This document shows positions 8,101 through 25,300 of a DNA stretch of 64,000 nt, piece after piece. The DNA comes from a virus. How positions within the stretch are numbered: the first letter of the stretch is position 1; each line of letters starts with the position of its first letter. Under the pieces are notes generated by a model that did not search any database, was not told where the DNA came from, and worked only from the letters and a program-made list of their open reading frames with translations. The DNA lies in IMG/VR virus record IMGVR_UViG_3300006802_000077, positions 1-64,000 of that record. One strand, written 5' to 3'. A program made the position numbers and the translations under genes.

Positions 8101-9073
8101 ACTTAGAATAAAGGTCCATAACGCTACAGGCGACATAGGATTAAAAGATTTAAGATTTTATCAATTTGAAAAAAGCAATTCAAATTATTATTTACCTTTC
8201 TATAATCAGAATATTTTTTACGACCCTCAGCCGCCAAGCAGTGAGGGTTATGCAGCTTATGTTGTAGAAATACCTAAAATACTAACCAAATCTTTTTTCT
8301 CTCCAAACTTATCAAAAATCAAATTTGATGTTTTCACAGGAGGTGTTGGCGGCCGCCAATCGAACCAGATGGACAATTATTCATATATTATAAGGGCCAC
8401 GGACAACCAGCGTTCATCACGTTATATATATTCACAATGGAAAACAACACCCAATACTCCACCTATGGAAAATTGGTTTTCTTCTCGACATTCGAACTTT
8501 ATGTATGACTCAAAAATTAATTATTACAACGGTCTTTCACCGTCCGACACCTATCTAACTGGCACTTCATTTTATTTAAATGTCAAAATACATTATTCGA
8601 TGACTGGAAATGATGGGGATTGGTTTGTTCATGATATTGGTTCAAAAGAAATTGTAAGAGGTGACAACCCTCAATACGGGTATTATGCTAATTATAAAAG
8701 ATTGGCTACTTCTTTAGGACAACAAATAGAAATTGAAATTCCTGGTGATGCAGCACAATCTAATTATAAAAAACTCGAAATGTGGATTACTGCTAGTTAT
8801 GACTACTCATCATACGCCACATATGAAGGAAAACGAATAACAACATTATCTTACGAAGGTGACCCAGAAAGTCAAACTGACCCAGATATAGCTCATAAAT
8901 TTTTACCTAGAGCAACTGTTGCTATAACTAAAGTGGTTGGATTTGATGGTAACATAATGAATCAGCCAATTGATATTACGGAATATGTTGTTGAAGGATA
9001 TACAGTTTTTAATGATACGAATCAATCAAATCCACAATCATCTTTGACTGCATTTGAAATCGTTAAGGACTGA
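5108..9073 (+). CDS. Large multi-jelly-roll tail protein with DENF anchor motif
   Basis: The 1321-residue product starts with the same anchor motif ('LTHEELDENFRDLRYDTDL') as its neighbours. The rest is beta-rich and made of several jelly-roll-like modules. One is introduced by 'TLNSSLWDTANSEG' and 'SSGTGTGTGGF' at about residues 725-760 and ends in 'YAFDNIFFTND'. Others contain 'LDLTNYTHISFYMIRG', 'PLDLTSYTHFGYTSIKG' and 'LRIKVHNATGDIGLKDLRFY'. The recurring 'LDLT..TH..(F/Y)..I(K/R)G' phrase marks the repeated unit. RCC1 motifs are absent, unlike both flanking proteins. Bases 7500-7640 and 8340-8420 use many GGC and GCC codons unlike the AT-rich surroundings. A structural, probably host-contacting protein; the precise function is not recognised. 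Confidence 0.6.
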   Translation: MSITYRGNKFKALTHEELDENFRDLRYDTDLHRVTNSGNTTNVSITVESITANTITTTNTIIQELSLLATDELIFADVDPNYLKKSIEISENVKIVGQEGSIYAPGNIIQVKQKIYDKPSRYYFDPTSTYSSDFLGWDKSKSYPYSEVFNDGVLSFTPHSTDSNNTVQVNLCLSYSLDSKKTSYSGEIDIELWDYPDYVSGTYKFITHLATIKSGTISTDPNNVCGNTLQSLNLVYLDENISNTRNYVIRFKPPTSFSPNTTFLNINQTTQMYYASNTFVETSNVAVTTRTWEPYVESIVGDEELITNFNDGNNQLDVANTESTTWAFERGTANTQRFGPNYYTPDFGEYVINGHPGTKFDVIMYDDFNEPTINTIKWNSSSTINLVSANTGVSATGNTEGLRVPDIKATNEIVLSVNDYSDGQNLISQSSTDWDIANCNSEIFVCELDDVNLAFSRKLYPPMQFLPGYTDTSIPAGYNQEEECLAYVNNRWTFPKNPKSSNNAIVFPGGWDNRLDRKIELYSKFLDLTNYTHISFYMIRGTAGNGYYRTRYSGGVTPYMQLDFRTANKSSLGSPEPFTGSTGIYTSRDEKSLSISSSNYGLQYLNQNNMFEWEKYHLEIPAAARVNNMRIHFAFYYNDFWFAIQDLTVYNEANLDSSSCYYLKTDENNYGTCVLESNNIDLSNTYGLTYYFAYGTDTNGGRELNNRGCSVINSETIYDDFETGTLNSSLWDTANSEGFFVASSGTGTGTGGFISPYGNYYLNTTVCPTGRNYRLLISKPLDLTSYTHFGYTSIKGNNTNGGTTTTFTHYATLLDERLDGHYRGSGYTYSNFTQAGVCTTGESSSIDTSYTIDDHLFRQPIGDESEYDGNILEADKTVVWGKSLYLIPESWRKSNVVLIIEVYDGNNDDGYYAFDNIFFTNDVTPSANIQIEIVNDNETWNSSNINLSTWLPFYSHFENDPTYGTNPNYVIPRLRQTTYNWTQERLYIPPNYRKENSKLRIKVHNATGDIGLKDLRFYQFEKSNSNYYLPFYNQNIFYDPQPPSSEGYAAYVVEIPKILTKSFFSPNLSKIKFDVFTGGVGGRQSNQMDNYSYIIRATDNQRSSRYIYSQWKTTPNTPPMENWFSSRHSNFMYDSKINYYNGLSPSDTYLTGTSFYLNVKIHYSMTGNDGDWFVHDIGSKEIVRGDNPQYGYYANYKRLATSLGQQIEIEIPGDAAQSNYKKLEMWITASYDYSSYATYEGKRITTLSYEGDPESQTDPDIAHKFLPRATVAITKVVGFDGNIMNQPIDITEYVVEGYTVFNDTNQSNPQSSLTAFEIVKD

Positions 9074-9088: not shown

Positions 9089-12000
9089 ATGGTAACCAGA
9101 AGAAATACTAAAAATTCTCCACTAACTCACGAAGAACTCGATGAAAATTTTCGAGAGCTTAGGTATGACACATCTTTACAAAGAGTTTTAGAAAATGGAA
9201 ATACAACAAGTAATTCTATAGAATTGGAGAATCTTTCTGGTATAACAAATGCAGAATTATATACAACACAAACAAACACTTTTAACGCAATAATAATTTC
9301 CCAAAATACATACACTACTTTACCAACAACAAATGTAGATGAAGTGTTTGCTGGAACCGACCACTCCTATTTAATTGATGAGGTAGGAACTGTATATCAA
9401 TTTGGAGATTTTAGGAATCAAGCAATAACATATGAGGGATTTGTTAATCCACAAGAAATATATACTGAAACTATTACAACAGAAATTTCTGCTGGAACAA
9501 AAGATATTATTGAAACTATTACTGATGGAATCTTTTATTTTAGTAGTGGAACAGGAACAGGACCAAATGGAGGTTTTAAAACACAAGATAATTTGAAATA
9601 CTTATCTTTTACAGGTTCTTCTGATTCATTTGCTCCAGGAAATACTAGAGTTTTAACGTCAAAAACATTAGACTTAACAACTTCAACTTTTGTCACAATA
9701 AATGCTATAAAAGGAAGTTTAGATAACGGCGGCCATGGAAATTATTGGAATACTGTGCTTCCAGTTCTTATTGATGAACTTACTGATTTTCGTAACGAAT
9801 CTTTAGATAACTTTGAATTGTTTTTACAATTTAGTGATGATGATGGTTCATCTTGGACATATTCCGAAAAAATTAATGTAAACTTTGATTGGGATGACCA
9901 TACAGTTTTTATACCAGAAAGGTATAAAACATCTCAATCAAAAATTAGAATAATACAAGCTCATATACTAAATCAATATTATCAACATTCTTTTTATAGA
10001 GACGTTAGTTTTAATTCTTTATATTATTTTTCAGATGGTTATTACAAATACTTTCCGGAAAATGTTGGTAATCAATGGACAGAAGTTCCTTCTTTTGGTG
10101 TAAAATCAATTAAAATTTATGAAAATATTTCTAAGGGATATTTAACATTTAGTGATAATGTTTTTTCTTACAAAAAAACTAAGATTGGCAATGGCTTTAC
10201 TGTAGCTTTGAGAAGTGATGGTTTGGTGTTTTATTGGGGAGATTTGTATCCAGTAACTCTAAATTCAAACACCTTAGTTGAACCTACACAATTACCCATA
10301 AATGGTTCATATGATAAAAAATTCATAGACCTTGCTGTTGGCAACGAATCAATATATTTAATTGATGAAAATAAACATTTGTGGGTTTTAGGAAACAATG
10401 ATTTTGGTCAATTAGGTATTAATAATACGACACATCAATCCAATGAATTTATTGAACTCGATGGTATATGGGATAGTATCTATGCTTCAAGAAATTTTGT
10501 TTTTGGTATTAGAGATAAAGAATACACACTTTGGTCTTGGGGTCAAAATGATTGGGGGCAATTAGGAACAGGAAATAGATTGAATGTTTCTTCACCCGTT
10601 TTGATTAATGGTCCGAGAGAATGGGATAAAGTTTTTTTGGGATATGATTCTTCTTATGCTAAGGAAAAAAATGGAACATTGTGGTTCTTTGGAAATGACA
10701 CAAAAACTAAAAGTGGTATAACAACAGAATCTTTAAACGCTCAATATAGAATAAATGATGATAGGAAAAAAAATGAGGGATTAAAAAAAGTTGTAAGTAC
10801 AAATGATGAACACTCTTTTGGTATTTCAAATAATAATATTTTATATAGATTGACAACTAGAGATGCGAATACATCAGGTATAAGAAACAAATCAACAATA
10901 TTCACCACTAATAATTATGAAGATTATGACCAATTCCCTTGGCAAGTCTATGACAACAAACAATACATAGAACTTTTTGATGGGCACCAGCCTACTAGAA
11001 GGGAATGGATAGTTGACTATTACTTGAGTACTTTAGGTAATAGTGATTGTTATCCTGAGTATGTTAATTATGCGATTGATATTGATAAAAAACTTTATGC
11101 TATAGAATCACACTATTCAAATGCTAGAGCGGGAATAATAACATCTCCAATTGGTCTTAACTGGAATGAATATTTTTCAACACCAGTTCAAGTTACCTCT
11201 CCAGGAAGTGATTTGTGGAAAACAGGTACTGTTGGTAATTGGACTAATTTTGGTATTAAAGATGACGGAACTCTTTGGACATGGGGAAAGTCAGCAGCTT
11301 ATTATAACAATTTTGGTGACCCCGAACATATATGGAATGGTCCCGAACCAATAAGTTCCTTCAGTAATTATAGAGTTCGCTTTGCTTATATTTCTTCACC
11401 CGTTTTAATTGATTCGGGAAATTGGAAAAGTATTTTTACAGGACACCACAGATATAATAATGAAAATTTAGGATACAGTAGACATTTTTATGGAGCACAA
11501 ACAACTTTAGCTATTAAAGAAGATGATAAAACACTTTGGGGTTGGGGAAGAAATAGAATAAATGCTTTATTTCAATCAAATGACCCGATTATAATTAAAG
11601 ATATATCTCAGACCAACAAAATAATTGCCGTTGATTCTTGGGGTACGGCTGGGGCTGCAAACACCGGGATTAACGGGGGACCTTATAACAATACAGCTCC
11701 TTCACTTTGGTCTAGTTGGGACAGAGGAGGTTTTGTTATAGATTCCAAGAAAAAGTTGTTTGGTTGGGGTGCTGGTCATAAAATTACTCCTTCTGAACCG
11801 ATTGGAGCTCCAGGCGCATTATTTTTTGTTGTGGACCAACAGTACGCCAGACAAATTGAGGAATATGATTGGATTGATTTTATGGCTTCCGGTTCTGAAC
11901 AAATCAATACTTCATTTCCACAACAACAAGCAATTGCTACGAGTACAGGCACTTATTTAGGATATAAAGGTCAAGGTCTAAGATTAGGAATCACAGCTGA

Positions 12001-15000
12001 AGGTGAAATGTATGGTTGGGGTTACAATTTATATGGCGGAGCTGCAGGGTTCGGGGTCGGTAATTATCTGTCTAGAGCTGTTCGAGTAAGAGAATATGCA
12101 AATACCAGTATTTACGACATAAAATGGGCCAAGGTTAGTAATTCTAAAAGTAATTTTGAACATAATGCAGCAATTGACCAAAATGGTAGTTTGTATATTT
12201 GGGGCCGAGGAACAAATTATAAACTTGGAACAGGATCCACAGCTTCAATTAATTATGTAACAGCTAATAAACATGAAAGAGGAACAAATTGGTTCTGGGG
12301 ACAAGTCTCTTGTGGTAGAGAATGTACAGCTGCAATAAGAAATGATGGAACATTATGGTTCACTGGAGAAATTTCTGGTAGTTGGAAACCAAGCACTTTC
12401 ACTCAAGTTGGTACAGATAGTGATTGGATTTATGTTGTTTGTGGTTATAAGACAATTTTGGCTCAAAAATCCAATGGCCAAGTATACTCATTTGGTTGGG
12501 GTAATCAAGTAGCATCTGGATTAGTAGATTATAATACACATAGATTGAGGACATCTGAACCAAGTGGTGCTCAAGAAGGTGAATTGATAGGATACAAATT
12601 CTTAGAACCTTCTGGAACACAAACGACTTTAGACGATGTTGATTCTGGAACAATCAATTCTTCAGTTTGGGACACAACAGGTTCAAACACCACACTAACA
12701 CCAGTAACTTCAGGAACAGGAACAGGTTCAACTGGCGGTTTTGTTGCATCTTTTTCAGGAAATTACCATTACAAATTTACTGGAACTGGTGATAGAAAAA
12801 TGCAGAGTGTTCCTTTAGATTTGACAGGAAAAAAATCAATTTCATTTGATTATATTGTTGGTTTAAACACCAATGGAGCAGGAGAAACTTCACTACCTTC
12901 TCCATACGAGTACAGTAGTATAACTTCCAGTAACGGTATAAATGTATTATTCTCTACTGATTCTGGGGTTTCATGGCAAGATTCTACTGGTAGTTACCCA
13001 GGCCAATTAATAGGATATAAAATAAATTTATTTCACTCTTTCTCTAGTGCTTGGAGAACTATTGCTGTAGAAATTCCTGCTTCAGCTCAAACAAGTGGAG
13101 TTTTAGTTAAAATATATGATGGTAGAACTTATGGTGCAGGTGAAGAAGGCATAAACGAATATGGTATTGATAATTTTAAATTAAATACTGATTTTAATTA
13201 CACAACAATACCGTTTGTATTTAAAGACTTTTCAATTGATATAGGTTCAAATACAGCTTCAGGCATTTTAACTACTGATGATTTAGAATTTTATAATTCA
13301 TCAATCACAACAGCAAATACTAATGTAGCCACAATATGGGGTAGAATACACGACGAATATCTTTACAACACCTATAGAGGTTCTAACGTATATGTTCCTT
13401 CTAGAATACAGTTAAATGATGTGGAAAATTTTTCTGTTGCTAAAATACAATCTTTGTTTAGATTTGCAAATAATAAAACATATACTTTAGTAACAAATAC
13501 CGCAAGGCCATATGAAACCAATCCTTGGACAAATTACCACATCAATACGGAATTTAAAAAAATTGATGTTGAGCAAATTGATTATATTTCACAAATTTCA
13601 GAAGATAGATGGCAAAAAGCTGAATTTGTTCGTAATATGGTTATTGGATTGAAAGAAGATGGGACTCTTTGGTCTTGGGGATGGAATGATAATGGTAAAG
13701 CGGGTAATGGTTCTGCACCAGGATTAGGTCCTAGTCCAACTCCAAATCAAATGGTTCAGGTCAACAGTTTAGAAACACAAAATTTAAAATGGACCGATTT
13801 CACAAGTTCAGCAAATACTGTACACGGAATAACAGAAGATAACAGATTGTGGAATTGGGGAACAAATGGAAGTTTCGAAGAATTTGGAGATGGAAACACC
13901 AGTACAACTTTAACTCATCTTCAGCCAATACAAATTGGCGGTTATCAGTCAGAATATGATTGGTATAAAGTTTCTGGACACAATAATTCTAGAATAGCAC
14001 TAAAAAAGGATGGAAGTGCTTGGCATTGGGGCCGTGAAGATAATGTTGTTACTTCTGTTTCTTCTTCTCTTATAAGTGTCTACAACAATAATATAACCTC
14101 TTGGTCAAATACAGTTAATACTTATCCTTACTTTGGATTATATGACGAAGCTGTAACTTATACATATACTTCGGGCCCGCTTGGCTCAATATTAACTGTC
14201 GACAGTGTAGATGACCATTGGTACAATAATGCAAATGTTAATTTTTATCAAATACCCAGTTCAAACATATATGCTGTTAGTGCAAATTATGGTATTGAGC
14301 CTCCAGGAGGTACAGCACACGTTACGGATTATAAATGGAGAATTCATAGTTATGAACCTGGTCATACATTAAATTATTCTCCTGCTTCAAATAATACTGG
14401 CGCTTTAAATAATATGGGACCAATGAATCGTCCTGGTTCAAATTATCATTTGGTTTGTACTGGTAAACCAGAATACAAATATGCATCGAGTTATCCACAT
14501 ACTGGTGAAAATTACATTTTATTTGAACCCAAAGATAAACTATCGAGAATTTCTTTTAGTATGATTAAAGGAAATAATTATAATGGTTTGGGAGCTACCT
14601 TACAGCAAGGAGGAACTGGTACAAAATTTTTATCTTTAGAGGTTTTAGAAGGATATTCTCAATATAGTTCAAATGATTATGGCCAAGTTGGCAACGCATT
14701 TAGAATGGCAAATAATGACCCTTGGATTTGGCCTCGGGCAGCAAATAATATAAGCATACAAACAGTTCAATATGAATCATTAGAATTTCATAACTTGGAT
14801 GACCCAGAATGGTGGGAATTTGCAAATATACAAATGGATACTATCACCACTCCAGGCCAAAATGAAACTTGGCAAGATTATGGACCTTTTTTTGTTGGAA
14901 GTTATAATTCAGGCGGAATGCAAACTTGGATTAGAATGAGATACATTTCAACGGAAGATGATAGTAGTCAAGAAGAATATTATAGTTATAATAATTTTGC

Positions 15001-18000
15001 TATAGACAATGTAAATTTTACTTGGCTTAATGATTCGGTTTATCCTATCCAATTGGTAGACTATAACTTTGAACAATTTGAAGTTGTTACTTGGAACAAT
15101 GTAGCTTCTTGGAGTAATACTACTACTTCTTTTTACGGCCAGTCATCATCTCAAACAGAATCACCAATATTATTAGATTTTGGTTGGGAGTCTTTTGAAT
15201 TTCCTACTTTGGTGGATAATGCAGGCGTACCTTATTTTAAATTCAATGAAATAACTCCTTCAGAAGGCAATATTTACACTAGAGATAGTTTTGGTGCAAA
15301 CGTATCCGCTACTAATAATGGTCTTATGGTTTTTGAAGATGATACTAATAGAATTTATCGTTATAGTTTGAGTCCATTTTATTATCACGGTTATGTGAGT
15401 TTAGGTAGTACAACCGCCGAATTTGGAAGAATTGATTCCGCAGGTTCTATTTCTGCTGTTAGAAGTTCATTAGGTAATGTGCAACTTTATAATAATGAAA
15501 CCGGACAACTTTACACTACTTTAAATTATTTGGAGTTTGGCAATTCATCATATAATACTTTTGGAAAAGATGTTGCCGTTTATGATCAATATGTAGCTAT
15601 TATTGATACTAGATATGTTTATGTTTATCATGTTGGTAGTTTACAAAAGGTTTGTCAATATTATTTTGCATCAACAGTTAATAAAGTTGATATTCATGGT
15701 GAACATTTAGTTGTCGGTGTAGGAAGTAATGTTTATGTTTTTAAATTTTTAAATTATTTAAATGAACAAGGTCAAATTAACCCTGGATTTCAGTACTCTT
15801 ATAATTTATCAATACCATCTACTTCCCAAACAATAAGAATTAATGATAATTATATTGCAATTTCTTATAATACTTTTTATGGTCCAACAATAAGAGTTTA
15901 TCCGATAATTACTAATTCTCCTTTTGTTATTGGTAATTATTTTGAATTTCCTTGGAATGATTATTATGAATCAGGTTATAGTCCTATTTCAAACCGTAGT
16001 TTCGGTCTTGCTATGGAATTATCGGACAAAAATATATTAGTAACTTCTGAACCTAGAGCTGTAAATTATTCAAATACTGCTGTAGGTGTTGTTTTAGTAT
16101 ATGATTTAGACATAAGAAAGTTTTCTTATGCTATAGAAAATCCAAATCCTCCGGAAGGATTTAATGTCCCTCAATCGGACGTATTTGGTTCATCAGCAGA
16201 TTTTTTTGGAAAATCTTTATCAATTAATCCAGAAGGAACACAATTAATAATTGGCGCACCGGTCGATAATTATTATTCCGTTAATAAGGTTGGTAAAGTT
16301 TATGTTTATAGATTAGGCTCTCAATATAATGATAAAAACTGGATTGACATTTCTTCCGGTATGAGCAACGGATTAGCTGTTAAAAATGATGGAACATTAT
16401 GGGGTTGGGGAGAAAATAAAGACGTAAGAATTCTTTTAGACGAATTCGAATTAAATGATGCATCTACACCTGTTCAATTGTCTTCTTCTGGAGCTACTGA
16501 TATAGCAATTGGAGATAAACATTTAGGTTATTTAAAGGGATCATTATATGTCTGGGGTGAAAATGATTGGGGACAATTAGGAACAGGAACTACATATTCA
16601 ACTTCCACTCCAACAAGCATAGGTGTCGGTTTTGAAAAAATATTTTTTGGCCAAGATAGGTCTTTTGGAGTTAAAACTGATGGAACACTATGGGCTTGGG
16701 GTAGAAATACATATAGAGAATTGGGAATAGGTTCCGGAACTTTACCAGTTTCTAGTCCTGTTCAAGCTGGTTCAACAATTGGATGGAAATACGTTGATGC
16801 TAAAGCTCCAAGATTAACTGTAGGTGTTGATTCGAACAATCAAGTCCGTAAATGGGGCCAGTATATAAGTGGGCCGCCTCCATATACGACACCAATTACT
16901 AGCGCTCCAACTTTAGATAGTGATTTTGGTACAAATATAGAAAAAGTTGCGGTTGTACCAAAACCTCAGGCTAATACAATAATATTTGCTTTAGACACTT
17001 CGGGAAATTTATTTGCTAAAGGAACAAATAGCGAAAGATATTTTGGTTTTTGGGAAAAAAATTATGACATAGCTCAAATAAATTCTGGAAACCATCTTTT
17101 TTACGGACATTCTACTGATTTTTTTATTGATTCATCTGGAAATTTATTTGCTTGGGGTAGTAATGATTCTCACGGATTAGCAATTGGTTCCAGTGATGAG
17201 ACTTTATATTACAGTACACCCGTTCAAGTTGGTTCAGGTTTTAAAACCGTAGCTTCAGCTCCAAGCACAACTCATCTTTATTCGTCATATGACAATTCAA
17301 CATTTTGTCCTTGGAATTCTGCAAATAGAAACAAAGACGGAAAAAATATAATAAATCCCACTACAGGAGTTAAATTTTTACCTGGTTCTCAAACATTTTA
17401 CGGTATATCTAATGTCGGAAATTTAATGGTCTGGGGTAGTTGTAAAGGATTTAATACTCAGGGAACCAACATTTATAGTAACGTATATTCTTCTCCTACA
17501 ATATTAGACAACACACATAATTGGACTCAAGCGAGTTTAGGAACAAATCTTTTTGCCGCTATTGATTCAAACGGTTATTTGTTTTTAAGAGGTGACAATT
17601 ATTGGTATGATGTTCCTGGCTGGTGGGGTTATTACATGAGAGATACTATTGGTAGACCTTGGCCACCTTTAAAAGATTTGAAACAACATTACAGAGACCA
17701 TTATGGATTAAGTTCTAGTACGGTTGTACATTTAAACGATTTATTATTCCACCATACACCTGAAGATACCCTTCCTGTAAATGTTTATTGGGGTTATAAT
17801 TTTAACAAATCTTCTTTCACACAGATAGGGACAGATACGTGGCAAAAATGTTTTGTTTCTTATAACTACCCTAGAATTCCATTAAATTATAATCTTACAG
17901 GTAGTTTTTTTGGTATATTCGCCAACGGTGGAGATGATTATGTTGACGAAAATACTTTTGTTCCTTCTGATGATATTTTTAATACATTTGGTGGAAAATT

Positions 18001-21000
18001 ATATTTTAATAATCTTTTTGCAATAAAGAGTGACGGTACTCTATGGGTTGCAGGACCAAATTGTTATGGTGAATTGGGTGTGGGTGACATTCAACCCAGG
18101 TCAGTATTAACTCAAGTTGGAAGTTCAACATGGAGTCATATAACTTCAGTACAAGGAACTACATTAGGAATTCGTTCTGATGGTACTTTATGGTCTTGGG
18201 GTAGAAATACTTTTGGTTGTTTAGGTTTAGGCCAAGAAGAAACTGTTTTACCTTTTGTTTCATCTCCAACCCAAGTCGGCACATCAAATGCTTGGAAAGA
18301 CGTAAAAATCTTCACTCACTCGGAATCTTTGCCTGAAGCACAAGCATCAGATGGTTATCTTATTGATTATGATGATGATTATTTTACTGATTATTGGTTA
18401 CCATATCATCCTTGGCCAGTTGATATAGTAGTGTATGCTGTCAAAACCGAAGATGATGGTAATGATAAAATTTATGGTTGGGGATATAATAGATATGTGA
18501 CTACTGATACAACTGATTTTTCATATACAGGCAGTACACTATTTGGTAAAACGTATATTACTACAAATTCTTATAATTTAGATGGTTCTGGTGTTGCTAA
18601 TGTGACTTCTCCAGATTCAATGGATGTAAGATATGGAGAATGGCCCGAACAATGTGAAGTTATACAGTTAGGAGATAAAACAGCTTTACTTAGAGATAAA
18701 TTTTCAAATCAAAATACTAGAATTTATTGGGGAACATCAACGTGGGGTTTACAATCGGTAAACTCTACTCAAACTTCTGTTGGACAACCAGGGTCTTTTT
18801 TAGGAGATTTTGAGGATTATGTTACAACTCAAGAATTTAAAGAATCTTGGCCAATTATTTTTAGAACGGATGAAGATTCAGTTATTCAAATTGCTCCACA
18901 AAAAACTTGGTTGGATATAGAATCTGGAAATAATGAAATTTACGCTGTTGAAAGTGGAACAGGAGATATCTATAGATTTGGATATATGAGAGGTCCATTA
19001 ATAAAAGGTTCTGGAGGGTTTAGTAATGTAATACCTACTTATTTTACTTCCGGTTACGGCATCGATCAATCATATTTTGGTTTAAAAACTGGTTCTTTAG
19101 ACTACGATGTTTATGCGTGGGGCTCGCCAAGGGCCGGTAAATTAGGAAACGGAGAACATAGTGCAATTACTGTAAGTGATGCTTCTCCTTTTGTTTGGAC
19201 AACAGAAGTTTCTAAAATATTAAGCACAGATACGAACACATTATATTTAACGAGCTCAGGTCAAGTTTATACTTTAGGTGTAGCTGATTCTATTGGTTAT
19301 CTCGGTAATGGTAAAGTGAAGTATTCTTTAGAACATTATGGTGAAATATATTCTTATCCCGTTCAAATTGGTGATGATACAAATTGGTCAAATGTGAAAA
19401 CAGGAAATTATCATGCAGCTGCTTTGAAAGAAGACGGTACTTTGTGGACTTGGGGACTTGGAGCAAATTATAAGTTGGGATTATTTGGTAGTTCGAATAG
19501 GTCTAGCCCAACACAAGTTACCGAAGGACCGACAACAGGAAGTAATTATTGGAGTACTATTGAAGATTTAGATTCTTCCAAAACACTAACAAAAAGAGCT
19601 GACGATTCTCTGTGGATTTCTGGAACAGATGATTTAACTTTATATTATGATTCCCTCTATTATTTTGATTTGATTGGAAATTATGGAGGACTAAGAAATG
19701 TTAGACAATTACCAGAAAGATTTGGTAAATTTAAGAAAATAGTTTCTCTAAGAAATCTTGTTGTTGCTATATCTAAAGATGATGGCTCACTTTGGTATTG
19801 GGGTAAAAGTATTAAAAAGGTGCCTGGAATAGATGATAACTCCACTTGGAGTGAACCTAGTAGATTTACATTCAGCTCAAATTTTGATAAGAAAAGACCT
19901 AAACCACCTTCTATAGGATGGACAGATGTGCATATTGCACAAGTTTATGGAACTGATTATGATGGTAGTTTATCCACTAACGATGCAACGTGTTACTTTA
20001 ATATGGTAGCACTACATGAAACAGAAGGTGCTTGGATTTGGTCTAAAAACTGGACTGGAGAATATGGGTACAACGATACGACATCAATGGAAGAATGGGT
20101 TACAGAACCTATAAACCAAACAAAACTTTTACCAGGCGATTCTGGAGCTAATTTTTATGATATTTCAAAATTACCGGACCCATGGTCTAACGATGCAAAT
20201 ACTACTTTGGGTAAAGGTATTGTAGAAACGCAAAATTGGAAAACTGGAAATTATTGGAAAAAAGTTCAAGTGGGTATTAAATCTGCTGAACATTTAAACT
20301 CTAATTGGTATGCTCCTAATTTCACCAATTTTTATATGGACAGCGGTGAAGAATGGCACGATTTTACTAGAAGAGCAGGATACGTTTATGCTTTGGACCG
20401 AGACAACAATCTTTGGGTCTGGGGAGGAAACTACAAACACGCTTTAGGTAAGTACTGGATAAATGACCATTTTGGTACTGTTGACAGCTATTTACTTTAT
20501 AATGAAAGTAGCATAAAATTTATAAGTCTATCAACTAGAGCCTTACCGCCTGCTTTTTTCGGTCTCTCTCCGCAAAACCATTTTTATCATGGCGCAGATT
20601 ATTATAATCATAGTTCGACACCAGTTTTGGTTGGTTATGGCTATAGTGAAACTTCCGGGAGTAATTGGACGTATAACATCGATGAGAAAAATAGTTTTGA
20701 TTTAGGTGTAAAAGATTTTTGTTTAAGTTATACATTGGATAATATAATTTTAACATTAGACAATAAACTTTGGACACCAAACACCAATTCTGGTCTTACT
20801 AATTCTGGCCATACAGAACAATGGATTTATAGAGATTATTTTTTACCTAGATTGTTGATTTCTGAAAATGTTGAAAAAATATTTTCTGGTGTTGATAACT
20901 TTGCTATGATAAAAGAAGATGGGACTCTTTGGATGTGGGGTTATGGAACTTATGGTAAATTAGGAACAAATAGTACAACATATCAATCAACACCAACTTT

Positions 21001-22804
21001 AGTTTATACTCCAATTAATAATTGGAAAACAATTTATTGTGGAGAAAATCATACAATTGGTGTGACTGAAGATAATTATGTTTATGGTTGGGGTAAAAAC
21101 GAAAATGGAACTTTAGCTCAAGGTGATATTGGTGATAATGAAGTTTATTACTCCACACCAGTATTAATTAATTATAGAAATTATTTCTCGGAACAACAAT
21201 CAACATATACTACTTCAAAAAATTATATTAGTGTTGAAAAAATTAAATCGAATACTACAGGAACAATTTCGATCGATTCAACCACACAATTATATGGTAA
21301 AGATGTTGGTTCTATTGATGTTCCTGGATTTTTAACGCAAACTGTTATAACAACAAAAGAAGAAGAAACTTGGATTAGAACACAAAATGTTGAAGGTACA
21401 ATTTATTACGGAAATACATGGACGCATTTGGATGGTTTAGACACTACAATAACTCCTGCAAAATCAAATAGTAATGTAATAATACAACTTTCATTACAAT
21501 ATGATTATCCAATAACTGGAGATGGTTATAGTAATGCTTGGTCTAATGTGGTGACTTGGGATAATAGTAAAATAAATTGGTCAAACACTATTTTACAATG
21601 GAGTAATACATCAATATGGCAAAACACTATTGATTCTTGGACAAACACAGTTGCAACTTGGGACAATGTATCTACTGGTAGTACAACAGATGTAGGCTGG
21701 GCAAATTCTAGTTGGTTGAATGTGATAGTTAGTGCCAACGGGCCCGGTACCGGCACCGGCGGAGCAGCAGGTTCTTCTGTTAATTCGTTTTATCATTTAG
21801 AATATGAAGGCGCTGCCGGTTCAGTCCGAGAGTATGGTTTTTATGACATGGGATTGTCTGTTGCTCCAACAAAAGTCAAATTTAAAATTATAAAAGGTAA
21901 TGGAACAAACGGTCTGGAAACTCCAGACGCAAATGAATATTTACTGGTACAAGTCAGAAGTTATGACGCCACCTTAGGTACATTTGGCAATTGGGTAACA
22001 GTTTATACTGACGAGACTGATTTTACTAGAAGTTCACTTTTTTCTTGGGGTGAAGAAACCGTATCTTTAATACATTCACCAACGCAAGAGAACAACAACG
22101 CCCAGCATATAAGATTTCTTCAATTAAATCATAGTGGTCTTACTTATGACAATTATGCTATAGATGATATTACATTTATTTTTGACACCGAGGTAGCCGC
22201 TTTTGGTTCTGGTGGACAAGAAATACTCGTATCAGATTTTGAAAACAATAGTTTACAAACAAATGTTAATATTGTAATTCAGAATATAGTTTGGACTAAT
22301 ACTCCTCTAACTTGGGATAATACCATTGACTCCTGGACAAATACTCAAATATGGAATAATGTTCAGACAGCTTGGTCAAATGTTTGGTTAGGAGGTTGGA
22401 ATAATGTTTCAACCACAAACTCCACATTTTTATATGAAACCAATAAAAATTATGGGGAAATTAAGATTCGTTTGAAGAAACAAGGTAAATTACTAACTAA
22501 TGCTTTAGGTGTAACTACAGTAAATTCATATGATGATACAGGGTCGTTCGGTATTTCTGAAACAAGGTCTAATTATCAGCAATCCTCTTGGTTGTCTGTT
22601 TATCACTCAAATACAGAAGCTACCTATGCGGTTTCTGGAACATTAACCGGAATGTTCATTGACAATCTTTCACCAGAAGACTTTTTATATGATTATGGTA
22701 CTGTTTCATACACACTAGAGGTTGGTGGCACAGATTCAGGAAATTTCTTTAGAATTCTTCCAAACAGTACTTTAAAAGTCATTGAAGTCCCGGCAAAAGA
22801 CTAA
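9089..22804 (+). CDS. Giant RCC1 / FG-GAP propeller and jelly-roll tail protein (4571 aa)
   Basis: The gene has no internal stop over 13.7 kb. Approximate map by residue: 1-60 anchor motif ('LTHEELDENFRELRYDTSL'); 90-330 jelly-roll; 360-1150 RCC1 repeats; 1175-1375 jelly-roll; 1400-1650 RCC1; 1665-1990 jelly-roll; 2066-2410 seven-bladed FG-GAP-like propeller; 2415-4060 the longest RCC1 array; 4150-4195 tryptophan ladder; 4200-4385 jelly-roll; 4400-4440 second ladder; 4445-4571 C-terminal beta domain. I count by eye roughly 35-40 RCC1 signatures of the type 'DGTLWxWGxNxxGQLG', enough for about five propellers. No catalytic motif is visible. It is probably a very long fibre or baseplate appendage made of linked propellers, placed between hub and wedge genes and preceded by its own late promoter. 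Host attachment is the likeliest role but is inferred. Repeats share short near-identical DNA, so in vivo length variation is possible. Confidence 0.7.
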   Translation: MVTRRNTKNSPLTHEELDENFRELRYDTSLQRVLENGNTTSNSIELENLSGITNAELYTTQTNTFNAIIISQNTYTTLPTTNVDEVFAGTDHSYLIDEVGTVYQFGDFRNQAITYEGFVNPQEIYTETITTEISAGTKDIIETITDGIFYFSSGTGTGPNGGFKTQDNLKYLSFTGSSDSFAPGNTRVLTSKTLDLTTSTFVTINAIKGSLDNGGHGNYWNTVLPVLIDELTDFRNESLDNFELFLQFSDDDGSSWTYSEKINVNFDWDDHTVFIPERYKTSQSKIRIIQAHILNQYYQHSFYRDVSFNSLYYFSDGYYKYFPENVGNQWTEVPSFGVKSIKIYENISKGYLTFSDNVFSYKKTKIGNGFTVALRSDGLVFYWGDLYPVTLNSNTLVEPTQLPINGSYDKKFIDLAVGNESIYLIDENKHLWVLGNNDFGQLGINNTTHQSNEFIELDGIWDSIYASRNFVFGIRDKEYTLWSWGQNDWGQLGTGNRLNVSSPVLINGPREWDKVFLGYDSSYAKEKNGTLWFFGNDTKTKSGITTESLNAQYRINDDRKKNEGLKKVVSTNDEHSFGISNNNILYRLTTRDANTSGIRNKSTIFTTNNYEDYDQFPWQVYDNKQYIELFDGHQPTRREWIVDYYLSTLGNSDCYPEYVNYAIDIDKKLYAIESHYSNARAGIITSPIGLNWNEYFSTPVQVTSPGSDLWKTGTVGNWTNFGIKDDGTLWTWGKSAAYYNNFGDPEHIWNGPEPISSFSNYRVRFAYISSPVLIDSGNWKSIFTGHHRYNNENLGYSRHFYGAQTTLAIKEDDKTLWGWGRNRINALFQSNDPIIIKDISQTNKIIAVDSWGTAGAANTGINGGPYNNTAPSLWSSWDRGGFVIDSKKKLFGWGAGHKITPSEPIGAPGALFFVVDQQYARQIEEYDWIDFMASGSEQINTSFPQQQAIATSTGTYLGYKGQGLRLGITAEGEMYGWGYNLYGGAAGFGVGNYLSRAVRVREYANTSIYDIKWAKVSNSKSNFEHNAAIDQNGSLYIWGRGTNYKLGTGSTASINYVTANKHERGTNWFWGQVSCGRECTAAIRNDGTLWFTGEISGSWKPSTFTQVGTDSDWIYVVCGYKTILAQKSNGQVYSFGWGNQVASGLVDYNTHRLRTSEPSGAQEGELIGYKFLEPSGTQTTLDDVDSGTINSSVWDTTGSNTTLTPVTSGTGTGSTGGFVASFSGNYHYKFTGTGDRKMQSVPLDLTGKKSISFDYIVGLNTNGAGETSLPSPYEYSSITSSNGINVLFSTDSGVSWQDSTGSYPGQLIGYKINLFHSFSSAWRTIAVEIPASAQTSGVLVKIYDGRTYGAGEEGINEYGIDNFKLNTDFNYTTIPFVFKDFSIDIGSNTASGILTTDDLEFYNSSITTANTNVATIWGRIHDEYLYNTYRGSNVYVPSRIQLNDVENFSVAKIQSLFRFANNKTYTLVTNTARPYETNPWTNYHINTEFKKIDVEQIDYISQISEDRWQKAEFVRNMVIGLKEDGTLWSWGWNDNGKAGNGSAPGLGPSPTPNQMVQVNSLETQNLKWTDFTSSANTVHGITEDNRLWNWGTNGSFEEFGDGNTSTTLTHLQPIQIGGYQSEYDWYKVSGHNNSRIALKKDGSAWHWGREDNVVTSVSSSLISVYNNNITSWSNTVNTYPYFGLYDEAVTYTYTSGPLGSILTVDSVDDHWYNNANVNFYQIPSSNIYAVSANYGIEPPGGTAHVTDYKWRIHSYEPGHTLNYSPASNNTGALNNMGPMNRPGSNYHLVCTGKPEYKYASSYPHTGENYILFEPKDKLSRISFSMIKGNNYNGLGATLQQGGTGTKFLSLEVLEGYSQYSSNDYGQVGNAFRMANNDPWIWPRAANNISIQTVQYESLEFHNLDDPEWWEFANIQMDTITTPGQNETWQDYGPFFVGSYNSGGMQTWIRMRYISTEDDSSQEEYYSYNNFAIDNVNFTWLNDSVYPIQLVDYNFEQFEVVTWNNVASWSNTTTSFYGQSSSQTESPILLDFGWESFEFPTLVDNAGVPYFKFNEITPSEGNIYTRDSFGANVSATNNGLMVFEDDTNRIYRYSLSPFYYHGYVSLGSTTAEFGRIDSAGSISAVRSSLGNVQLYNNETGQLYTTLNYLEFGNSSYNTFGKDVAVYDQYVAIIDTRYVYVYHVGSLQKVCQYYFASTVNKVDIHGEHLVVGVGSNVYVFKFLNYLNEQGQINPGFQYSYNLSIPSTSQTIRINDNYIAISYNTFYGPTIRVYPIITNSPFVIGNYFEFPWNDYYESGYSPISNRSFGLAMELSDKNILVTSEPRAVNYSNTAVGVVLVYDLDIRKFSYAIENPNPPEGFNVPQSDVFGSSADFFGKSLSINPEGTQLIIGAPVDNYYSVNKVGKVYVYRLGSQYNDKNWIDISSGMSNGLAVKNDGTLWGWGENKDVRILLDEFELNDASTPVQLSSSGATDIAIGDKHLGYLKGSLYVWGENDWGQLGTGTTYSTSTPTSIGVGFEKIFFGQDRSFGVKTDGTLWAWGRNTYRELGIGSGTLPVSSPVQAGSTIGWKYVDAKAPRLTVGVDSNNQVRKWGQYISGPPPYTTPITSAPTLDSDFGTNIEKVAVVPKPQANTIIFALDTSGNLFAKGTNSERYFGFWEKNYDIAQINSGNHLFYGHSTDFFIDSSGNLFAWGSNDSHGLAIGSSDETLYYSTPVQVGSGFKTVASAPSTTHLYSSYDNSTFCPWNSANRNKDGKNIINPTTGVKFLPGSQTFYGISNVGNLMVWGSCKGFNTQGTNIYSNVYSSPTILDNTHNWTQASLGTNLFAAIDSNGYLFLRGDNYWYDVPGWWGYYMRDTIGRPWPPLKDLKQHYRDHYGLSSSTVVHLNDLLFHHTPEDTLPVNVYWGYNFNKSSFTQIGTDTWQKCFVSYNYPRIPLNYNLTGSFFGIFANGGDDYVDENTFVPSDDIFNTFGGKLYFNNLFAIKSDGTLWVAGPNCYGELGVGDIQPRSVLTQVGSSTWSHITSVQGTTLGIRSDGTLWSWGRNTFGCLGLGQEETVLPFVSSPTQVGTSNAWKDVKIFTHSESLPEAQASDGYLIDYDDDYFTDYWLPYHPWPVDIVVYAVKTEDDGNDKIYGWGYNRYVTTDTTDFSYTGSTLFGKTYITTNSYNLDGSGVANVTSPDSMDVRYGEWPEQCEVIQLGDKTALLRDKFSNQNTRIYWGTSTWGLQSVNSTQTSVGQPGSFLGDFEDYVTTQEFKESWPIIFRTDEDSVIQIAPQKTWLDIESGNNEIYAVESGTGDIYRFGYMRGPLIKGSGGFSNVIPTYFTSGYGIDQSYFGLKTGSLDYDVYAWGSPRAGKLGNGEHSAITVSDASPFVWTTEVSKILSTDTNTLYLTSSGQVYTLGVADSIGYLGNGKVKYSLEHYGEIYSYPVQIGDDTNWSNVKTGNYHAAALKEDGTLWTWGLGANYKLGLFGSSNRSSPTQVTEGPTTGSNYWSTIEDLDSSKTLTKRADDSLWISGTDDLTLYYDSLYYFDLIGNYGGLRNVRQLPERFGKFKKIVSLRNLVVAISKDDGSLWYWGKSIKKVPGIDDNSTWSEPSRFTFSSNFDKKRPKPPSIGWTDVHIAQVYGTDYDGSLSTNDATCYFNMVALHETEGAWIWSKNWTGEYGYNDTTSMEEWVTEPINQTKLLPGDSGANFYDISKLPDPWSNDANTTLGKGIVETQNWKTGNYWKKVQVGIKSAEHLNSNWYAPNFTNFYMDSGEEWHDFTRRAGYVYALDRDNNLWVWGGNYKHALGKYWINDHFGTVDSYLLYNESSIKFISLSTRALPPAFFGLSPQNHFYHGADYYNHSSTPVLVGYGYSETSGSNWTYNIDEKNSFDLGVKDFCLSYTLDNIILTLDNKLWTPNTNSGLTNSGHTEQWIYRDYFLPRLLISENVEKIFSGVDNFAMIKEDGTLWMWGYGTYGKLGTNSTTYQSTPTLVYTPINNWKTIYCGENHTIGVTEDNYVYGWGKNENGTLAQGDIGDNEVYYSTPVLINYRNYFSEQQSTYTTSKNYISVEKIKSNTTGTISIDSTTQLYGKDVGSIDVPGFLTQTVITTKEEETWIRTQNVEGTIYYGNTWTHLDGLDTTITPAKSNSNVIIQLSLQYDYPITGDGYSNAWSNVVTWDNSKINWSNTILQWSNTSIWQNTIDSWTNTVATWDNVSTGSTTDVGWANSSWLNVIVSANGPGTGTGGAAGSSVNSFYHLEYEGAAGSVREYGFYDMGLSVAPTKVKFKIIKGNGTNGLETPDANEYLLVQVRSYDATLGTFGNWVTVYTDETDFTRSSLFSWGEETVSLIHSPTQENNNAQHIRFLQLNHSGLTYDNYAIDDITFIFDTEVAAFGSGGQEILVSDFENNSLQTNVNIVIQNIVWTNTPLTWDNTIDSWTNTQIWNNVQTAWSNVWLGGWNNVSTTNSTFLYETNKNYGEIKIRLKKQGKLLTNALGVTTVNSYDDTGSFGISETRSNYQQSSWLSVYHSNTEATYAVSGTLTGMFIDNLSPEDFLYDYGTVSYTLEVGGTDSGNFFRILPNSTLKVIEVPAKD
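15287..16318 (+). repeat. Seven-blade FG-GAP (integrin-like) propeller inside the giant gene
   Basis: This segment has seven consecutive units that each end in a V-Y-V-Y or equivalent strand: 'RIYRYS', 'NVQLYN', 'YVYVYH', 'NVYVFK', 'TIRVYP', 'VVLVYD', 'KVYVYR'. Several begin with F-G ('FGANVS', 'FGRIDS', 'FGKDVA', 'FGLAME', 'FGKSLS'). The last unit has the textbook FG-GAP phrase 'FGKSLSINPEG' then 'LIIGAP'. Its repeat type differs from the RCC1 repeats on both sides. Confidence 0.65.
21539..21670 (+). repeat. Tryptophan ladder 1 (W-x-N repeats, period 6-7 residues)
   Basis: Seven tryptophans recur every 6 or 7 residues, each followed two residues later by asparagine: 'AWSNVVTWDN', 'INWSNTILQWSN', 'IWQNTIDSWTN', 'ATWDN'. 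It sits between the last RCC1 array and the last jelly-roll of the giant protein. Confidence 0.75.
22292..22408 (+). repeat. Tryptophan ladder 2 (W-x-N repeats)
   Basis: This is a second ladder with the same unit: 'WTNTPLTWDNTIDSWTN', 'IWNNVQTAWSN', ending 'GGWNN'. The spacings are 7, 7, 6 and 7 residues and then shorten. It shares the phrase 'NTIDSWTNT' with ladder 1 and lies just after the last jelly-roll of the giant protein. Confidence 0.75.
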
Positions 22805-22833: not shown

Positions 22834-23244
22834 ATGACCACACTCTCAACAGAAAAAACATATTCTAAAGGATTCAGAGACTTAGACCTATCCTTTCAGA
22901 TACATCCTGTCAGGAAAGATATCAATGTACATAAAGATGAATATGCGGTCATAAATTCAGTAAAAAATTTGATTTTAACTAATCATTATGAGAAGTTTTT
23001 TCATCCAGAAATTGGAAGTAACATTAGACGGTTATTGTTTGAAAATATAGATACAGTTATTGCTTCTCAAATAGAGAAAGAAATTGAAGAAACTATATTA
23101 AATTTTGAACCTAGAGTTCAAATCTCAAATGTAGTGGCTCTACCTTCACCTGATGATAATCGATATAATATTGAAATGGAATTTTTTATTATCAATGTTG
23201 CAAGTCCAATAAAAATTAATTTCTTTTTAGAACGGATAAGATAA
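22834..23244 (+). CDS. 25: Baseplate wedge protein gp25
   Basis: At 136 residues it matches the family length (T4 gp25 is 132). The core 'KDEYAVINSVKNLILTNHYEKFFHPEIGSNIRRLLFENID' (one motif, residues about 29-70) is the conserved gpW/gp25 signature. It contains the 'EKFFHPEIGSNIRRLLFE' helix-loop and is followed by 'IEETILNFEPRVQISNV'. In T4, gp25 joins gp6 and gp53 at the inner wedge and helps trigger sheath contraction. The gp6 gene follows after one base, as in relatives. High confidence. Confidence 0.93.
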   Translation: MTTLSTEKTYSKGFRDLDLSFQIHPVRKDINVHKDEYAVINSVKNLILTNHYEKFFHPEIGSNIRRLLFENIDTVIASQIEKEIEETILNFEPRVQISNVVALPSPDDNRYNIEMEFFIINVASPIKINFFLERIR

Positions 23245-23245
23245 G

Positions 23246-25300
23246 ATGGCAGACCGTTTAAGAGTTACCGAACTTGATTTCGATTCAATCAAGACAAATT
23301 TAAAAACTTTTCTGAATCAACAGTCTCAATTTACTGACTATGATTTTGAAGGTTCTGGTTTAAATGTTTTAATTGACATTTTGGCATATAATACCCACTA
23401 CAATGCTTACTATTTAAATATGGTGGCTAATGAAGCATTTTTAGATACAGCATTACTTCGTGATTCTGTTGTGTCTCATGCTAAGAGTTTGGGTTACACT
23501 CCATATTCAAAATCTGCAGCTAAGGCCTCGATAAGTTTTTCCACTGGAACAGGTTCTCATAAATTAACAATACCAAGAGGTTTTTCTTTTTTATCAAATC
23601 AAATTGATGGAAAATCATACAATTTTGTTGTTATAGAAGATATTACAAGTACTGCAGCTTCCGTTGGCGGGTCATTGGGAGGATATACTTTTCCCGAAAT
23701 TTTTATTTATGAAGGACAATTTGTAACTTATAGTTATACACAAAATGACAGTACAAATCCAAAATCTATTTTTACAATAGAAGATTCCAATGTCGATATT
23801 TCTACGATTAAAGTTTATGTAAAAGAATCTTCAGTTAGCACAGAATCTGTTTTATATAATTTATCTACTGATGTTTTAAGTGATTCTAATTCATCCAATG
23901 TTTATTATATACAGGAAGGAAAAGCTGGAAAATATCAAATATATTTTGGTAACGGAATAGTTGGTAAAAAAGTTCCTGACGGCGGCGTTGTAACAATAAC
24001 GTATCTGGTAACAAATGGTTCAGAAGCTAATGGCGCCGATTCATTTAAAGCTACGGACACTTTGACCGATAGTAATAGTATTCTATTCACAAATTTTACA
24101 ATTACAACAAATTATGCTGCAGCCGGTGGTTCTGATAGAGAAACTGTTGATTCGATAAAATTGTTAGCTCCAGCACAATATGCTTCTCAAAACAGATTAG
24201 TTACAAAAACAGATTATGGTTCATATTTAAAAAGAAATTATTCTGCGGCTGATTCTGTTTCAGTTTGGGGTGGTGAAGACCAAGTTCCAAAAGTTTATGG
24301 TAAAATTTATCTTTCCATAAAACCTAAACAAGATTTATTCATATCAGAAACAGAAAAAACTAGATTGATTGAAGAAGTTTTAAAACCAAAAACAATTATT
24401 GGTACAGATATAGAAATAGTGGACCCGGATTATGTTTTTATTAAAGCTGTTACAAATATTTTGTATGATAAAAATAAAACAAGTAAAACTGAAACTGCTT
24501 TGAAAGCTTTAATTGAAAATACAATTTTATTATATAAAAATGAAAATATAGATAAATTTGAATCCACTTTTGTAACTTCAAAATTGCAAAGATATATTGA
24601 TTCAACTGACAGTTCTTTTGTTGGTTCTGAAACTTTAATTAGATTAGAAAAAAGAATTACACCTCAATTGAATAAAAATTATTCGTATAATTTTAATTAT
24701 GGCATTCCTTTATATCGTGGGACAATATTAGATGGATTAAAAACAAACGAATTTAATTATCTTGATGGAACAATCCAAAGGGTTTGTCAAATAGAAGAAG
24801 TTCCACAATCATTTACTGGAGTGGAAAAAATACAAATTACAAATTCTGGTTATGGTTATTCAACGACACCAACGGTAACAATAACAGGAGATGGTAGTGG
24901 TGCTACAGCTCAAGCGGTTATAGTTAATGGAAAAATCGATTCAATTATAGTCACGAATAAAGGTTCAAATTATACTAAAGCTCTAGTTACTATTTCTGGA
25001 GGAAATGGTTTTGAAGGAGAAGCAACTGCTGTAATTTCAAACGAAGTAGGAACACTTAGACTCTTTTATTATGATACAAATTCAGAAAAGAAAATTATTA
25101 ATTCAAATATAGGAACTGTAAATTATAACACAGGCGAAGTTTTTATCAATGATTTAAAGATACAATCAATTATTTCTGGTAATTATTTGAAAGTTGATAT
25201 TCAACCAAAGAGTTCTATAATTGAATCTCAGAGAAATACAATCATAACAATAGATGAAGAAGATTCTTCTTCAATAATAACAAATTTTGAAATTCTATAA
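23246..25300 (+). CDS. 6: Baseplate wedge protein gp6
   Basis: This is 684 residues long (T4 gp6 is 660). The N-terminus 'LRVTELDFDSIKTNLKTFL' and 'GSGLNVLIDILAYNTHYNAY' is the diagnostic start of gp6/J-type wedge proteins. 'TKTDYGSYLKRNYSAADSVSVWGGED' (one motif in the middle) is the conserved wedge core. gp6 dimers make the continuous baseplate ring around the hub. Residues about 525-595 hold two copies of a 'NSGYGYSTTPTVTITGDG' type module that T4 gp6 lacks to my knowledge and that recurs in gp8 and in the protein at 33880. The stop overlaps the next ATG by one base. High confidence. Confidence 0.92.
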   Translation: MADRLRVTELDFDSIKTNLKTFLNQQSQFTDYDFEGSGLNVLIDILAYNTHYNAYYLNMVANEAFLDTALLRDSVVSHAKSLGYTPYSKSAAKASISFSTGTGSHKLTIPRGFSFLSNQIDGKSYNFVVIEDITSTAASVGGSLGGYTFPEIFIYEGQFVTYSYTQNDSTNPKSIFTIEDSNVDISTIKVYVKESSVSTESVLYNLSTDVLSDSNSSNVYYIQEGKAGKYQIYFGNGIVGKKVPDGGVVTITYLVTNGSEANGADSFKATDTLTDSNSILFTNFTITTNYAAAGGSDRETVDSIKLLAPAQYASQNRLVTKTDYGSYLKRNYSAADSVSVWGGEDQVPKVYGKIYLSIKPKQDLFISETEKTRLIEEVLKPKTIIGTDIEIVDPDYVFIKAVTNILYDKNKTSKTETALKALIENTILLYKNENIDKFESTFVTSKLQRYIDSTDSSFVGSETLIRLEKRITPQLNKNYSYNFNYGIPLYRGTILDGLKTNEFNYLDGTIQRVCQIEEVPQSFTGVEKIQITNSGYGYSTTPTVTITGDGSGATAQAVIVNGKIDSIIVTNKGSNYTKALVTISGGNGFEGEATAVISNEVGTLRLFYYDTNSEKKIINSNIGTVNYNTGEVFINDLKIQSIISGNYLKVDIQPKSSIIESQRNTIITIDEEDSSSIITNFEIL

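Follow-up and report, generated by a model that had tools for sequence, protein, structure and literature searches.

How a single reading frame of 13.7 kb came to lie in the middle of a phage baseplate gene cluster, and what its product would do there, is the question raised by the viral DNA analysed here, a window of 64,000 nucleotides covering positions 1 to 64,000 of the IMG/VR record IMGVR_UViG_3300006802_000077 (91,775 bp). The frame, ATG-started and stop-free over 4571 codons (9089-22804, plus strand), codes a protein with a predicted isoelectric point (pI) of 4.8, referred to below as the giant, in which RCC1 repeats and Reelin-type jelly-rolls follow a short N-terminal module. The explanation that we consider probable is an oversized tail adhesin, in which this N-terminal docking module would sit on the baseplate and hold a host-binding chain of propellers and jelly-rolls, grown by nested insertion and repeat growth. 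Most likely it would belong to a general type of tail adhesin already known, of which it would be a new and extreme case, marked by its docking family, its unusual mix of payload domains and its very large size.

An assembly artefact or a pseudogene was ruled out, since the frame is also intact in a twin contig, IMGVR_UViG_3300025889_000073 (171,728 bp), whose giant gene has the same length and differs by 10 nucleotides and 7 amino acids (aa), the two records being 99.92% identical across 32.8 kb. The uninterrupted frame reported in the initial annotation is thus borne out. Judged from its genes the virus is T4-like, with PHROG and Pfam matches to structural proteins (portal, sheath, gp25-, gp6- and gp8-type wedge, hub/lysozyme, major head protein, scaffold and tube) and to large terminase, DNA helicase, SbcCD-like proteins and DNA polymerase. 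The host clue psbA was not found in either record, and a DNA similarity search against the phage collection gave zero matches.

The placement of the frame between hub/spike and wedge genes, which had been read from the sequence at the outset, is confirmed by profile matches, gp5-like and PAAR genes being found upstream and gp25-like and gp6-like genes downstream. The extra DNA after PAAR codes four proteins of 343, 778, 1321 and 4571 aa, and the locus is composed as follows (ORF, open reading frame; HMM, hidden Markov model):

680-1543, plus strand: gp5-like hub/lysozyme (PHROG 430, 8e-76), with PAAR the upstream border
1545-1841, plus strand: PAAR tip (PHROG 281, 4e-19)
1738-2769, plus strand: cassette ORF of 343 aa, in which a Reelin-type jelly-roll splits the small PAAR-adjacent protein (PF21471, 30.1 bits)
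2770-5106, plus strand: cassette ORF of 778 aa, with docking module, jelly-roll-like part and RCC1 units
5108-9073, plus strand: cassette ORF of 1321 aa, with docking module, jelly-roll-like part and Reelin-like HMM stretches
9089-22804, plus strand: giant ORF, 4571 aa, 511.8 kDa
9089-9223, plus strand: putative N-terminal docking module of the giant, residues 1-45 (LTHEELDENFRELRYDT...), common to neighbours and family
22834-23244, plus strand: gp25-like wedge (PHROG 261, 2.5e-45), the downstream border
23246-25300, plus strand: gp6-like wedge (PHROG 219, 1e-168; gp6 domains PF21379 and PF21871)

The start of the 343-aa ORF (1738) overlaps the PAAR gene in a different frame, and RCC1 was looked for in the 1321-aa ORF and not found there. 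Relatives of the gp6-like protein, taken from the 80 best among 379 confirmed stretches and 50-60% identical in the best segment, were placed in 79 other loci, 60 of which have both gp5 and gp25; these two genes are 8-1155 bp apart in those loci (median 16) versus 21,291 bp in this virus, and RCC1 was not found in the examined stretches of the 60.

The first ~45 residues of the giant are common to ORFs 2770-5106 and 5108-9073, the giant and the 1321-aa protein being 63% identical across 46 residues, and they recur with 60% identity over 52 residues in a 258-aa protein of the 17.5-kb contig IMGVR_UViG_3300017766_005478 (L175). An alignment search of IMG/VR with this module gave 77 loci from the best 80 of 104 confirmed stretches; once the twin contig was set aside 76 loci were counted, L175 included, and 74 of them have an ORF with the motif. 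This ORF lies between PAAR and gp25 in 47 of the 48 loci having both markers, the exception being L224 with PAAR after gp25, and of the 24 loci having one marker, the 20 with PAAR all have it upstream and the 4 with gp25 all have it downstream; two loci have neither. The PAAR-gp25 distance is 714-4830 bp in the docking-family loci versus 20,993 bp here. Outside the twin contig there are 58 distinct complete relatives of 127-958 residues (median 313), which collapse to 47 clusters at 90% identity, so that the loci are partly non-independent. Their consensus reads MTITKRxTKGxALTYxEMDENxRDLxEDTTLDRVLxNGNT, with M1, I3, R6, K9, L13, T14, E17, D19 and N21 invariant in the 58, columns 13-21 being conserved by construction because the search pattern fixes residues there. 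The mean majority-residue frequency is 0.72 over columns 1-45, 0.67 when columns 13-21 are left out, and 0.30 over columns 46-258.

Two marks of a tail adhesin are found in the giant, namely a gene within the tail/baseplate cluster and, in its family, a conserved N-terminus followed by a variable C-terminus; the anchoring itself would be provided by the module. Long repetitive phage appendages can also be structural, and the hairy filaments of phAPEC6 have an open role, which would suit a structural or decoy tail element (a whisker, or a decoration of sheath or collar) that does not bind a receptor. Such an element is nevertheless unlikely, a conserved N-terminus with a variable C-terminus being the usual mark of recognition proteins, as described for tail fibres in the paper on marine metaviromic islands (PMC3909814).

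The C-terminal parts of the 58 relatives were then compared with Pfam. Tail-related domains comprise collagen in six, tail collar in four, S74 chaperone in three, depolymerase C-domain in two and Gp53-like tail-fibre C-domain in one; the other matches are bactofilin in four, and RCC1 (three RCC1 models), head fibre and T4 gp9/10 N-domain in one each. All six collagen-type members (L192, L193, L216 and L220-L222) lie between PAAR and gp25. The docking family matches 136 PHROGs, and among the 25 listed the names are tail fibre for 10, tail or minor tail for 5 and virion structural for 1, with 9 unnamed, while the 60-residue N-termini searched against PHROGs gave a best E of 0.07. Assignment to the tail is supported because the docking module is common to three adjacent proteins and to the 58 relatives, and a very long host-binding appendage, as proposed from the start, is the best reading, the relatives of its N-terminal module sharing the locus and partly ending in tail-fibre domains.

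The giant gene is downstream of PAAR and the small PAAR-adjacent protein belongs to the cassette, which would also be expected of a delivered cargo, that is, a protein encoded beside PAAR that the spike would bring onto or into the host, as with PAAR-linked effectors. We hold this to be quite improbable, as the docking family at the same locus in other contigs has collagen-type tails, no catalytic or toxin domain exceeds the Pfam cut-off in the giant, and 511 kDa of folded domains would make a poor load for a tail tube.

For a tail adhesin, it is proposed that the first ~45 residues would dock the giant on the baseplate near the gp5/PAAR-gp25 region, and that the remainder would be exposed on the outside as a chain that combines RCC1 propellers and jelly-rolls with a probable FG-GAP-like propeller, its surfaces binding host-cell structures, presumably a host-surface molecule; the host polymer named in the initial annotation is a putative ligand. 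Among the literature searched, with limited terms, no paper was found that deals with the docking family or with RCC1 as a tail adhesin; the family, for which no earlier description was found, is the new element of the finding, and its module would offer an N-terminal handle for finding such adhesins in uncultured phages. As a more tentative extension, it is possible that the docking module is a general baseplate socket of uncultured T4-like phages for exchangeable payloads, ranging from collagen rods, S74 tips and jelly-rolls to a chain of half a megadalton with some five to seven propellers, and that phage RCC1 proteins at large are host-binding propellers whose filing under DNA metabolism is wrong.

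Giants with the docking motif were also observed in a separate lineage (G008, G010 and G015; loci L176, L178 and L179), with open frames of 3583-3659 codons, a 548-aa docking protein lying just upstream of the giant frame in L178 and L179. They are like ours in their N-terminal motif and giant size, but RCC1 was not found in them, nor was any Pfam domain in the 2693 scanned residues of L178.

The repeats that make up much of the giant were assigned with Pfam. PF25390 (WD40_RLD) matches in 11 stretches (E=3.7e-161, 537 bits versus a cut-off of 150), PF00415 with 1.9e-67 and PF13540 with 6.4e-58, and on these matches the RCC1 identity of the repeats is beyond doubt; for PF00415, the model against which the assignment was to be checked, 224 bits stand against a cut-off of 21.7. 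Matches to PF00415 at E<=0.001 number 13 in the giant and 2 in its 778-aa neighbour. A self-iterated HMM gave 32 RCC1 units at an independent E-value (i-E) below 0.01, rising to 36 when E up to 1 is allowed, a count that is circular because the HMM was trained on the giant itself; the same HMM applied to 50 shuffles gave a mean of 0.06 and a maximum of 2 units at <0.01, and the HMM settings used for other loci gave 29 units in the giant. The 36 units, which would form about five seven-bladed propellers, are distributed over residues 82-1160 (13 units), 1508-1659 (3) and 2417-4028 (20), so that the 35-40 signatures in three arrays counted by eye were about right:

9332-12568, plus strand: RCC1 array 1 (13 units, E up to 1), in two parts at residues 82-125 and 361-1160 with a Reelin-like jelly-roll in between
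13610-14065, plus strand: RCC1 array 2, residues 1508-1659 (three recognised units)
16337-21172, plus strand: RCC1 array 3, residues 2417-4028 (20 units at E up to 1, 17 at <0.01), with room for about three propellers
16328-17572, plus strand: first propeller of array 3, residues 2414-2828, predicted as UVR8-like and seven-bladed (AlphaFold2)

The AlphaFold2 model of residues 2030-2860 was built from 35 alignment rows and has a mean predicted local distance difference test score (pLDDT) of 63.1 and a predicted template modelling score (pTM) of 0.50. In the first propeller of array 3, blades 1-4 are mostly at pLDDT 88-97 and later blades at 35-91, with low-confidence loops. Comparison of the model with UVR8 (8gqe_B) by VIA gave Z 29.9 and a root-mean-square deviation (rmsd) of 4.0 over 327 aligned residues, covering residues 2414-2828, for which the model thus predicts one UVR8-like seven-bladed propeller; a phmmer search of one segment of the giant against UVR8 gave 2e-24. 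The likeness to the RCC1-like domains of UVR8 and HERC2 is that of a seven-bladed RCC1 propeller (Z up to 29.9), but these are eukaryotic signalling proteins and no common function is claimed for the giant. A second model, of residues 1-710 (38 alignment rows, mean pLDDT 52.9), is confident only for four RCC1 blades at 361-540, moderate for two short helices of the docking module and poor elsewhere, including jelly-roll 1 and residues 541-688. Structure prediction of tiles, in which the initial annotation expected propellers to appear, therefore yielded the seven-bladed propeller at 2414-2828 and the four blades at 361-540, and left most of the FG-GAP-like half at low confidence.

The notion that RCC1 is unusual in a phage protein did not hold, and RCC1 as exceptional in phages was ruled out, by three PHROG families (7220, 4219 and 16766), at least 585 confirmed stretches in a pattern search of viral contigs and the detection of RCC1 proteins by virion mass spectrometry. 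In the 82 loci examined there are 182 RCC1 ORFs, own-contig copies included, and two alignments took in 32 and 25 of the 59 non-redundant RCC1 segments; a single-propeller probe matched 29 of 50,697 annotated phage records at E<=1e-3. According to the respective papers, three RCC1 proteins (W70_237-239) were detected by mass spectrometry in W70 virions (PMC11370258) and one, GAP_001, in GAP32 virions (PMC5259590), and phAPEC6 encodes eleven, its 'DNA condensation proteins' being table entries beside mass and coverage values (PMC7247149). These proteins and the three PHROG families are like the giant in having RCC1 propeller repeats; those of W70, annotated as DNA condensation, are of one-propeller size (40-43 kDa), whereas the giant, of 511 kDa and coded in the baseplate locus, has three arrays together with FG-GAP- and Reelin-type domains.

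RCC1 was also encountered on or near tail proteins of cultured phages. In two Pseudomonas phages related to each other, Ppr_SeaP3 (SeaP3_12) and PollyC (Gp12), RCC1 units (PF25390 1e-55 and 5e-33) stand behind a T7-type tail-fibre N-terminus that both proteins share (PF03906 7e-5, 23.0 and 23.1 bits, just under the cut-off of 25.2), in genes directly after one annotated as lytic transglycosylase or internal virion protein. The likeness to the giant lies in RCC1 units on a tail-fibre-type protein, and the difference in the T7-type N-terminus, which is below cut-off, and the size of 865-867 aa, PollyC being an autographivirus. Genes for RCC1 proteins adjoin or lie near tail-fibre or baseplate genes in S-SRM01, where a wedge gene is followed by a long-tail-fibre gene and directly by the RCC1 gene, in BUCT-ZZ01, where the RCC1 gene is two genes after the tail-fibre gene, and in the Clostridioides phage LIBA6276, whose 1627-aa RCC1 protein adjoins an annotated tail-fibre gene, with a second RCC1 protein two genes further. 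Structure matches in BFVD include annotated tail fibres of Littlefix (poor superposition) and PollyC.

A different role, that of a head-internal protein whose RCC1 propellers condense or spool the packaged genome, has been proposed in print: the phAPEC6 authors suggest DNA ordering in the head, reasoning from eukaryotic RCC1, which binds nucleosomes (PMC7247149), and the W70 paper repeats the suspicion (PMC11370258). However, the gene of the giant stands in a baseplate cluster with PAAR/gp5-type and gp25/gp6-type genes as direct neighbours, not head or packaging genes, its N-terminal family includes members with tail-fibre domains, and two cultured phages, related to each other, have RCC1 behind an N-terminus of the T7 tail-fibre type. 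The predicted pI of the giant is moreover acidic, which is unusual for a DNA-condensing protein. A DNA-ordering role for the giant is thus very improbable, and a tail adhesin would connect phage proteins that PHROGs list with DNA metabolism, as 'regulator of chromosome condensation', with the part of the tail that recognises the host.

Several observations nonetheless weigh against the tail adhesin. S74, collar and collagen domains were not found in the giant by Pfam scans; not every tail adhesin has such a classic C-terminus. More than half of the 58 relatives are without a Pfam match naming a tail fibre, the collar matches, four in number, probably come from L177-L180, where near-identical proteins of 548 aa lie in examined stretches containing neither PAAR nor gp25, and most of the listed tail-fibre PHROGs are matched by six members, probably those bearing collagen. 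Among the gp6 relatives, the 60 loci that contain both borders leave no more than 1155 bp between these, and the docking motif was not found near ORF starts. In cultured phages the motif is weak, the best matches, 1e-4 with the L177 version and 0.04 with that of the 1321-aa ORF, being to proteins of Flavobacterium phage immuto annotated as tail fibre or tail spike, and docking as such is a role that we infer for the module from its sequence. Since RCC1 propellers have partners of many kinds, the ligand cannot be read from the fold; neither proteomics nor microscopy nor binding data turned up for this virus; and the authors of the phAPEC6 and W70 papers guessed a role inside the head for phage RCC1.

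How a tail adhesin could have reached this size is suggested by L175, in which gp53-gp5-PAAR is followed by proteins of 93, 258 and 928 aa. The order gp5-PAAR-small protein-docking protein-docking protein with RCC1 is identical in the two cassettes; they differ in that the RCC1 protein of L175 has 928 aa and six recognised units versus 4571 aa in ours, and partners of 93 and 258 aa versus 343, 778 and 1321. The 93-aa protein is 58% identical over 72 residues to the C-terminal part of the 343-aa protein and weakly similar to its N-terminal part (32% over 25 residues), and the ~215 residues of the 343-aa protein between those aligned parts contain the Reelin-type domain. Residues 2-118 and 504-618 of the 928-aa protein align with 3-125 (34%, 2e-12) and 155-291 (33%, 3e-5) of the 1321-aa protein respectively, and this split alignment indicates that the RCC1 propeller of L175 (about 127-487) was spliced into a nearly continuous part. 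Nested insertion is accordingly legible in these alignments both in L175 and in the 343-aa neighbour. The 258-aa protein matches a tail-fibre-named PHROG (7.8e-9, residues 77-237) and shows a weak relationship (24% over 143 residues, E 0.003) with the L186 member in the C-terminal part of the latter; that member in turn matches tail-fibre genes of P-SSP7 (5e-10) and S-SSM7 (0.008). The giant would have grown from an ordinary member of 130-950 residues of this conserved baseplate-locus family, by gaining further RCC1 units and by insertion of domain into domain, as with an RCC1 propeller lodged in another domain and with Reelin jelly-rolls that separate RCC1 blades or split the small neighbour; the case would thus show a route of phage adhesin growth, the nested insertion of whole domains.

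The remaining domains of the giant are the following:

9494-10111, plus strand: Reelin-type jelly-roll 1, residues 136-341, between RCC1 units 1 and 2 (PF21471 and HMM)
12644-13204, plus strand: Reelin-type jelly-roll 2, residues 1186-1372 (PF21471, 38.9 bits, and HMM)
15281-16339, plus strand: FG-GAP-like region, residues 2065-2417, only its last unit (16187-16309) passing Pfam
21539-21670, plus strand: W-x-N-T/V repeats before jelly-roll 3, residues 4151-4194
21707-22288, plus strand: Reelin-type jelly-roll 3, residues 4207-4400 (similarity to the PF21471-positive ORF 1738-2769)
22292-22408, plus strand: W-x-N-T/V repeats after jelly-roll 3, residues 4402-4440

The several jelly-rolls first noticed by eye thus stand as three of Reelin type. 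Two are supported by PF21471 (Reelin_subrepeat-B; cut-off 27) at residues 179-292 (30.0 bits) and 1226-1363, and the third, which has no Pfam match of its own, by blastp to ORF 1738-2769 (1.6e-11) and by the HMM. Region 1658-2058, jelly-roll-like by eye, has no Pfam family match and a weak Reelin HMM score equalled in 11 of 300 shuffles. W-x-N-T/V sites number 17 in the giant versus a mean of 2.0 and a maximum of 8 in 500 shuffles; mostly 6-8 residues apart, these repeats flank the Reelin-type jelly-rolls on both sides, and ORF 1738-2769 has them too, at residues 67, 73 and 248. They are perhaps linker strands of the inserted module.

The seven-unit FG-GAP propeller of the initial annotation fared less well, FG-GAP identity being supported for one unit only, by sequence similarity of residues 2367-2407 to PF14312 (32.8 bits versus a cut-off of 23, 8.1e-8, the region scanned alone); in the whole-protein Pfam scan PF14312/FG-GAP had no match at E<=1. 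When the seven hand-cut units were left out one at a time, unit 3 was equalled by 1 and unit 1 by 12 of 500 shuffles, and the other five by 60-140 of 500. The AlphaFold2 model of this half is mostly at pLDDT <50, except at about residues 2119-2222, and a search for relatives of the region found only the twin contig.

The giant is not the largest phage RCC1 protein, a candidate that was ruled out by frames in IMG/VR of 5133 codons with 135 PF00415 matches (G007, locus L167) and 5127 codons with at least 150 (G011, locus L115). A terminase was not found on G007 or G011 by phrog_2 or PF03237, so that with these two models their viral status is that given by IMG/VR alone; G013, which codes a 2141-aa RCC1 protein, has a terminase. 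RCC1 genes of one-propeller size were also seen in Synechococcus phage S-SRM01 (L012), among genes annotated as a 2OG-Fe(II) oxygenase, a tetratricopeptide repeat (TPR) protein and a sulfotransferase, and in Marine virus AG-345-E08 (L261), with three such ORFs among unannotated ORFs. Within the window, two other very large genes of structural type lie downstream of the cassette, at 28617-33878 (1753 aa; DUF4815, PHROG 358) and at 39099-44456 (1785 aa; PHROG 5838, virion structural protein).

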